Shown: positions 12,856 to 13,204 of the stretch, piece by piece | How the letters are laid out: the number at the start of each line of letters is the position of its first letter | How positions within the stretch are numbered: the stretch's first letter is position 1 | NCBI GenBank assembly: GCA_013813825.1 | Contig: JACCRA010000541.1 | Coordinates: forward strand, 1 to 20,747 | Length of the DNA: 20,747 nt | Source: Pyrinomonadaceae bacterium | GTDB lineage: Bacteria; Acidobacteriota; Blastocatellia; Pyrinomonadales; Pyrinomonadaceae | Direction: 5' to 3' | Translations under genes and position numbers: made by a program | The notes under the pieces: generated by a model | Database searches by the model: none | Told to the model about the DNA's origin: nothing | The model's input: only the letters and a program-made list of their open reading frames with translations

Positions 12856-13204
12856 GCTCCCGTAGCTCAGCCGGATAGAGCATCTGCCTTGTTGGAGCCT
12901 CGCGGCGTAACGGCCTCGCGCCTCGGCGCGGGATAACGCATCGAGTGGACGATCCTGTATGCGGGGACGCCCTGAGAGCCAGCGGTACTCCATCCGGAGT
13001 AACAATCCGTCTGGATTGGGTAATCCGCAGGAAACCACGGTTTTGTTTTTCAACCGACGGGATCCTCAGAGACTATACGGATCGGGGCTGCAATGCCTAA
13101 GAGATAGTCCAGCCAGCAAACCCGCTTTCACTGGCGGGCGGTCAGGGAAAGCCTGATGCTGGAAGCTAAGCAGAGGGTCGCAGGTTCGAGTCCTGCCGGG
13201 GGTA
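12856..13204 (+). tRNA. tRNA-Arg (anticodon UCU), interrupted by a group I intron
   Basis: Exon 1 is 12856-12890 and exon 2 is 13166-13204. Joined, they give a 74-nt tRNA. D arm GCTC / GAGC, anticodon stem TCTGC / GCAGA around loop CTTCTAA (anticodon TCT, Arg codons AGA and probably AGG), variable loop GGGTC, T arm GCAGG / CCTGC around TTCGAGT, acceptor GCTCCCG against CGGGGGT, discriminator A. The acceptor has two G-U wobbles (1-72 and 3-70). The joined sequence closely matches ordinary bacterial tRNA-Arg(UCU). The intron splits the anticodon between positions 34 and 35. No CCA is encoded. Without splicing this gene cannot give a usable tRNA. Confidence 0.93.
12891..13165 (+). ncRNA. Group I self-splicing intron inside the tRNA-Arg anticodon
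   Basis: A 275-nt intron with diagnostic group I features. The 5' exon ends in U (CTT) and can pair with an internal guide GAG (12895-12897), giving the U-G at the splice site (P1). The intron ends in G (13165), the omega-G. P3 is CGATCC (12950-12955) with GGATCG (13079-13084). P4 is TGCGG (about 12960-12964) with CCGCA (about 13025-13029), enclosing hairpins ACTCC-ATCC-GGAGT and AATCC-GTCT-GGATT. P7 is GACTAT (13071-13076, within the conserved TCAGAGACTATACGG) with ATAGTC (13104-13109, within AAGAGATAGTCC). P8 is GGGC / GCCT (13085-13098). P9 is a branched CCAGC / GCTGG stem near the 3' end. P2 contains the hairpin CGCGC-CTCG-GCGCG (12917-12930). No homing endonuclease frame is present. Confidence 0.93.

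Follow-up and report, generated by a model that had tools for sequence, protein, structure and literature searches.

What interrupts the anticodon of the tRNA-Arg(UCU) gene in this bacterial genome, and from where did the insert come? The window (the whole stretch of 20,747 nucleotides analyzed, contig JACCRA010000541.1 of a Pyrinomonadaceae bacterium) carries this gene at 12856-13204. A sequence-only reading had proposed a group I intron here, in what appeared to be an acidobacterium; the host does belong to an acidobacterial family. We conclude with high confidence that a group I intron splits the anticodon of this chromosomal tRNA-Arg(UCU) gene beside tRNA-His, and that it represents a lineage (class A) distinct from a second one at the same site (class B), probably inherited for the most part within one genus and its neighbors after acquisition from outside, and presumably removed by splicing.

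The split gene and the identity of its insert

All parts of the gene lie on the forward strand, at exactly the coordinates proposed by the earlier reading: the 5' exon (bases 1-34 of tRNA-Arg(UCU), ending in CUU) at 12856-12890, the intron of 275 nt at 12891-13165, and the 3' exon (bases 35-73, beginning with CUAA) at 13166-13204. The joined exons read C32 U33 U34/C35 U36 A37 A38, giving the anticodon UCU, and the insertion was located between bases 34 and 35, as had been claimed. The acceptor, D (both involving the 5' exon), anticodon, and T pairs of the cloverleaf formed in all 14 class A sequences, including that of the window. In its intron mode, ARAGORN reported tRNA-Arg (tct) with a 275-nt intron, which identified this as a tRNA-Arg(UCU) gene. 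An ordinary scan had been expected to miss the gene, and ARAGORN in default mode listed only tRNA-Pro (9661-9734) and tRNA-His(GUG) (13313-13386, forward strand; the downstream neighbor that marks the orthologous locus) in the window. The same mode recognized the Arg gene at all ten loci without an intron (L021-L030), and at none of the 14 class A and five class B loci (L016-L020). Because the intron mode gave odd anticodons at many loci, apparently from a shifted split, the hosts of L039-L061 (see below) were read by eye from the exons.

No Rfam family was found on the insert at gathering thresholds. When an E-value threshold was applied to a 611-nt slice, the group I intron model RF00028 aligned with 12907-13137 at 27.2 bits (E 6.4e-5); this counts as significant, though it is below the gathering score of 50, which is an annotation threshold and not a defining feature. 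A search of the whole genome with RF00028 gave no match at E ≤ 0.001. The relatives L004 and L108 scored 40.7 bits (E 3.6e-7) and 49.3 bits, respectively. Among 13 tRNA-Arg(UCU) introns compared with Rfam (one of them at 36/37), one exceeded the RF00028 gathering score, a further seven matched RF00028 at E ≤ 0.05, and five had no match. Since 14 of the order's 119 genomes contain full-length homologues inserted at this tRNA position, the RF00028 match is more than a chance match, confirming that the insert is a group I intron at tRNA-Arg(UCU) 34/35. The original identification therefore stands on the RF00028 match, the intron mode of ARAGORN, the homologues, and covariation (see below). Two further Rfam matches over the 3' half (YrlA and HPnc0260), both below their gathering scores, were taken as tRNA-like chance matches, and a single-sequence fold of the 349 nt (z -1.40; unlike the group I model) was discarded as evidence.

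In the ORF list of the window, no ORF of at least 100 amino acids overlapped the intron. A BLAST analysis of the gene revealed no match in plasmids, and in phages only a 39-nt tRNA piece. Just 3' of tRNA-His, an inverted repeat (GACGAGGAGAGGC...GCCTCTCCTCGTC, 13395-13436) is possibly the terminator of an Arg-His unit. Family matches were obtained for the neighboring ORFs at 2736-3800 (reverse strand), 8966-9589 (forward), 11579-12688 (reverse), and 13466-14458 (reverse): PilM and an RdgB/HAM1-type NTP pyrophosphatase above the cut-off, and an AI-2E-type transporter family and an acidobacterial VWFA domain family below it.

Core structure, covariation, and proposed splicing

The helices were written by hand on an alignment of the 14 class A introns (A1), and the structure was derived from the same sequences, so that the percentages given here lean towards it. 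P1, P3, P4, P7, P8, and P9, all named by the sequence-only reading, formed. In P1 (12888-12897), the exon bases CUU (12888-12890) paired with the guide GAG (12895-12897), with a U.G wobble at the 5' splice site and the same pairs in all 14 introns; UUG (12892-12894) can form P10 with the exon bases CUA, with one mismatch. P2 (12899-12945; 12899-12907 with 12937-12945, with two mismatches in the window) had three of nine pairs changed on both sides and 97.6% of cells paired, and P3 (CGAUCC at 12950-12955 with 13079-13084) had two of six and 100%, respectively. Within 12960-13029, P4 (12960-12964 with 13025-13029) and P5 (12970-12972 with 13018-13020), a region also aligned by RF00028, were invariant in class A, and P5b (12987-12991 with 12996-13000) contained two double-change pairs, with 95.7% of cells paired. 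P6/P6a (13030-13065; 13030-13031 with 13064-13065, and 13035-13036 with 13059-13060) was invariant in 14 of 14; one further P6a pair, as named, formed in none of the 14 rows and was rejected. P7, the guanosine-binding helix (13071-13109; 13071-13076 with 13104-13109), was 100% paired and invariant in all 14, and encloses the 3' strand of P3 (13079-13084) and P8 (13086-13088 with 13095-13097). P9 (13113-13162; 13113-13118 with 13157-13162) contains the P9b hairpin (13142-13146 with 13152-13156), and the intron ends in a guanosine at 13165, before the 3' splice site.

In A1, 98.1% of cells paired in the named structure vs 31.7-48.0% when partners were slid by 1-3 columns, and nine pairs were changed on both sides. 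Double-change cells numbered 23, compared with 0-9 in the slid versions and a mean of 5.5 in shuffles. P2, P3, P5b, and P8 covaried within class A; P1, P4, P5, P6, P7, and P9 were invariant there, and the covariation of P7 and P9 came from the cross-class alignment alone, while P1, P4, P5, and P6 paired without any covariation support. This second alignment (A2) comprised 21 rows of the 3' core only: all class A introns except L005 and L010 (12 of 14) and nine class B introns. Paired cells amounted to 99.7% and double-change cells to 61 vs 20.8 in shuffles, with double changes in one pair of P7 (U-A to C-G in 2 of 21 rows), two of P8, and three each of P9 and P9b. Two of the five measures of A2 were not clearly above shuffles: pairs with a double change (nine vs 7.5; reached by 39 of 500) and further pair types (19 vs 19.9; reached by 442 of 500). 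A terminal G was present in all of a set of 19 introns and in every one of the 21 A2 rows, and the 5' exon ended in U in 14 of 14 class A genes. Thus, the features by which group I introns are recognized were found: core helices with supporting covariation, the U.G wobble and guide of P1, and the terminal G.

UAGGAG, which pairs with CUU^CUA along its full length and forms a wobble at the splice site, was found in 78 of 124 introns (genome and viral contigs, among the matches listed). A guide matching CUU^CUA in six of six positions within the first 60 nt (G-U allowed) was present in 81 of the 124 introns listed vs 8.5% of shuffles. The guide of the window, UUGGAG, matches in five of six positions, with a mismatch at the second base of the 3' exon; a five-of-six match was seen in 11 of the 14 class A introns, which begin with G-U-N-GGAGCC and end in G.

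In group I splicing, a guanosine bound in P7 attacks the 5' splice site, the released exon end attacks the 3' splice site, just past the terminal G, and the exons are joined. The sequence features looked for were present, and a corresponding reaction may be proposed from them. The pre-tRNA would fold into the P3-P9 core; the guanosine bound in P7 would attack after U34, paired as U.G in P1; the freed U34 would then attack after the terminal G of the intron; and exon ligation would restore the anticodon UCU, such that the mature tRNA would read AGA and AGG.

Two intron lineages at one site within the order

Introns like that of the window (class A, 257-277 nt) were found when the 349 nt were compared by BLAST with the order's 119 genomes. 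They were full-length in 14 genomes, including the window's own, with one additional copy cut by a contig end, and were distributed among 12 of the 16 genomes of genus g23 (that of G087 from the cut copy), G043, and the pair G000/G025. P3 and P7 were unbroken in all 14. This distribution suggested that class A was probably inherited mostly vertically within one genus and its neighbors, following acquisition from outside. Inheritance may not have been strictly by genus, with some transfer within the family possible, because the intron of G043 (L007), which belongs to another genus, was placed among the g23 rows in the tree. Self-homing of class A is unlikely, judging from its sequences, because these introns are too short for the usual endonuclease gene and no ORF of at least 100 amino acids was present in that of the window.

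Of the 14 class A loci, 13 showed a tRNA-His gene nearby, the exception being L002, which is cut by the end of its contig. A tRNA-His gene was likewise seen at all five class B loci (L016-L020) and at five of the ten loci lacking an intron (L021-L030), where L029 has it on the opposite strand. The shared neighbor shows that this locus also has an intron-free allele. A pattern search recovered tRNAs whose anticodon region reads CUUCUAA without interruption from 82 of the 119 genomes, seven of which were also intron carriers.

The intron may be spliced and also be retained as a gate on the supply of tRNA-Arg(UCU), responding, for example, to the guanosine nucleotide level, and hence be domesticated rather than neutral. 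The persistence of class A in 12 of the 16 g23 genomes (one copy cut by a contig end), despite being too short for the usual endonuclease gene, is consistent with such a role; on the other hand, an uninterrupted gene suffices for many genomes of the family, and we regard gating as improbable.

The 31 carriers in the order comprised 15 of class A (including that cut by a contig end) and 16 of class B. By two patterns, 19 of these, including the window's own genome, had no uninterrupted UCU tRNA, and nine of the 19 were at least 90% complete. The window's genome is 78% complete, so that the absence of a second copy there is not proof. The remaining 12 (G025, G043, G092, G096, G001, G011, G015, G016, G027, G028, G107, and G110) had an uninterrupted candidate, and ARAGORN confirmed tRNA-Arg (tct) in the five that were checked (G015, G025, G043, G092, and G096). 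These 12 candidates, two of which (in G043 and G092) were confirmed within tRNA-gene arrays, bear on a further alternative, that of a dead intron in a tRNA pseudogene, with an unspliced precursor and with AGA and AGG read by another tRNA copy. However, each of the 14 class A copies has an intact core that shows compensatory changes, the exons are intact, and 19 carriers had no other copy by the patterns used; we therefore consider a dead intron quite unlikely and prefer a functional one. AGA is read by tRNA-Arg(UCU), and genomes in which the sole copy is split seem to lack this tRNA when the intron is overlooked.

Densely packed tRNA genes (ten to fourteen in 3 kb) were observed in G043 (L226), G092 (L227), and G106 (L229), and each of these arrays includes an uninterrupted tRNA-Arg(UCU). 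For G088 and G090, two genomes of genus g23 that are 97-98% complete, the model and patterns used detected no tRNA-Arg(UCU) in either form, split or uninterrupted.

In sister genera, a different intron (class B) interrupted tRNA-Arg(UCU) at the identical 34/35 position. Some class B introns had no long ORF (L019, 218 nt; L033, about 236 nt), and others of 644-665 nt did (L016, L017, L018, and L020). The ORF of L016 matched LAGLIDADG_1 (E 1.4e-4; 23.2 bits with a cut-off of 23.1), and that of L018 matched PDDEXK_5 (E 6e-41); in a comparison of the latter with PDB, the first match was 2ost, which was insignificant (E 0.2). The remaining class B ORFs were assigned by eye, and that of L017 looks frame-shifted. 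A new observation here is that the same site in the same family appears, from these sequences, to hold two lineages: a widespread one, class B, often with an endonuclease ORF, and class A, without one.

A covariance model (R1) was built partly from the intron of the window, in which an R1 match is therefore by construction. R1 gave some match at E ≤ 0.01, in any gene, in 58 of the 119 genomes of the order; among these, 14 class A and 16 class B introns lay in tRNA-Arg(UCU), as checked by the 3' exon (by eye for L216). In a sample of the phylum, 22 of 396 genomes had a match. Several of the introns found were in other genes or positions, with hosts read by eye. An intron of the same family (L045, G030:C104:6458-6567; RF00028 66 bits, above gathering) apparently splits tRNA-Lys(CUU) between 35 and 36, and two introns in tRNA-Arg(UCU) (L042 in G167 and L043 in G179) are apparently inserted at 36/37, a second insertion point. 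Others were located in tRNA-Leu(UAA) (L044, L046-L049, L052, L055, and L058), tRNA-Ile(CAU) (L050, L053, L054, and L057), tRNA-fMet (L051 and L060), and 23S rRNA (L056, L059, and L061; the host of L056 also by Rfam).

Relatives of class A and spread of the site

The phylogenetic tree contained 65 introns: 14 of class A, one class B intron of the order (L019), 35 Arg introns (hand-picked, shorter than 330 nt, from 132 rows of the pattern scans, among the matches listed), and 15 from other sites or genes. A second alignment left out 11 long-branch and 23S rows, and retained L111 and L050, which had also been flagged as long. In the first tree, class A was recovered as a single clade (100/98), separate from a group (93/95) whose 44 rows held class B together with the Leu, Ile, and fMet introns. 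A single clade of class A and three acidobacterial class B introns, a test chosen after the tree had been seen, was rejected by 47 log-likelihood units (p 0.013) with the first alignment and by 66 units (p 0.0008) with the second. A common origin for all 50 of the Arg(UCU) 34/35 introns included was likewise rejected (p 0.0055), with a short alignment (225 columns) and several long branches.

The sequence-only reading had proposed transfer from a tRNA-Leu(UAA) intron, pointing to the same position and to a resemblance of the 5' ends. Leu(UAA) introns do occur in the phylum, and the acidobacterial ones are group I introns in the anticodon with the same 34/35 position, CUU 5' exon, and GAG guide. 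A shared GAG would arise even without transfer, since the 5' exon of each tRNA ends in CUU, which requires GAG as its guide. Furthermore, a clade of class A with the acidobacterial Leu introns, a test that came from the sequence-only reading, was rejected (AU test; p 3.2e-7 and, with the second alignment, 2.4e-35), and the Leu introns, which interrupt another tRNA, grouped in a different clade with Ile and fMet introns and an Aeromonas Arg intron (100/99). Under these alignments and this model, a Leu origin is therefore very improbable, and class A is better regarded as a separate lineage. An assembly chimera, conceivable in that the assembly is fragmented (819 contigs; 78% complete), is refuted by other assemblies, with the same arrangement in 14 genomes that include contigs of 213, 277, and 528 kb, and its probability is negligible.

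From where, then, did class A come? In the second alignment, without long branches, three introns from Anaerolineae (L100, L108, and L144) joined class A (100/100). In the first tree, L108 alone joined it (95/79), and L100 and L144 grouped with L045, the Lys intron on a long branch (96/71); the enclosing group, which united them with class A, comprised 18 rows (97/38). Forcing class A and the three Anaerolineae introns together was not rejected (p 0.39) with the first alignment. The branch bearing on which of the three is closest to class A had a support of 62/4 in the second alignment. The nearest relatives of class A in the sample therefore appear to be introns at the same site in Anaerolineae.

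In a check of subgroup IC3, a P4 motif was absent from ten class A introns and present in most of the other rows examined. The introns of tRNA-Arg(CCU) and tRNA-Ile(CAU) from Agrobacterium and Azoarcus belong to subgroup IC3. Like that of the window, they are group I introns in bacterial anticodon loops, with other anticodons; class A seems, by eye, to differ from IC3 in the P4-P6 region. Synechocystis tRNA-fMet introns are associated with I-Ssp6803I, a homing endonuclease of the PD-(D/E)XK type, the structure of which is 2ost; at the Arg site, the class B intron L018 carries a PDDEXK_5 ORF, whereas the class A intron of the window does not, and the tRNA is another one. Maribeggiatoa and Thiomargarita are Gammaproteobacteria. 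The same tRNA, tRNA-Arg-TCT, contains a putative group I intron in Candidatus Thiomargarita nelsonii, with the gene missing from the annotation (PMC4853749), and in Candidatus Maribeggiatoa (MacGregor 2013a, as cited in PMC4853749). Both resemble the window in the interrupted tRNA, the unannotated gene, and the putative group I intron, and differ in the phylum; according to PMC4853749, neither the secondary structure nor the type had been established. These published cases, together with the scan described below, contradict the earlier suggestion that tRNA-Arg(UCU) was without precedent as a host. Bacterial introns in tRNA-Arg(CCU) and tRNA-Ile(CAU) are named in PMC5733544, and PMC4033280 places bacterial tRNA group I introns in cyanobacteria and alpha- and beta-proteobacteria. 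The introns of 22-49 nt claimed as group I in cyanobacterial tRNA-Arg(ACG), Gly, and Lys in PMC5733544 were judged too short for a group I core and not used as a precedent. In the open-licence literature searched, no report of a group I intron of this kind in Acidobacteriota was found, nor one of two lineages at the Arg(UCU) site.

The genome contigs of 84,980 species genomes were scanned for the S motif followed by a tRNA 3' exon beginning with CTAA; the resulting counts depend on the motif and are lower bounds. At least 118 contigs in at least nine phyla matched: Bacillota (at least 42), Bacteroidota (at least 23), Acidobacteriota (at least 22), Pseudomonadota (at least 18), Chloroflexota (at least five), Thermodesulfobacteriota (at least four), Rhodothermota (at least two), and Campylobacterota and Myxococcota (at least one each). 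The same pattern was found in at least 14 viral contigs, and a 5' exon ending in CTT was located in 110 of the 118 genome matches and all 14 viral matches listed. Split genes of this type thus extend over at least nine phyla as well as viral contigs, and they tend to be overlooked at annotation thresholds.

We favor, with moderate confidence, the view that tRNA-Arg(UCU) 34/35 is a landing site shared across phyla, invaded independently by at least two lineages in one acidobacterial family. The widespread lineage may have been spread by LAGLIDADG, PD-(D/E)XK, and (in viral contigs) HNH endonucleases; the second is endonuclease-free, with its sampled relatives only in Anaerolineae, and phage tRNA genes are a possible vehicle. 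What is noteworthy in the window is an unusual lineage at a widespread and under-annotated group I intron site. The presence of two lineages of ribozymes at a single site within one family, together with empty alleles at the same locus, offers a natural system for studying how introns become established in an essential RNA and whether phages transport them.

According to a 2014 review (PMC3984707), all phage introns then known were in protein genes. Among the matches listed, viral contigs L191 (67 kb), L193, L184, L181, L186, L190, and eight more had tRNA-Arg genes with the same kind of intron. Viral genes were examined in L191 (ribonucleotide reductase and primase-helicase genes nearby) and L193 (DNA polymerase and helicase), and some of the contigs, such as L187, may be host or prophage sequences. 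The intron ORFs of L191 and L181 matched HNH_3, and that of L186 matched PDDEXK_5. An unannotated record of an uncultured phage of 484 kb (LR756508.1, 12191-12337) showed 74.7-79.5% identity, over 73-145 query bases, to part of the viral tRNA-Arg intron genes.
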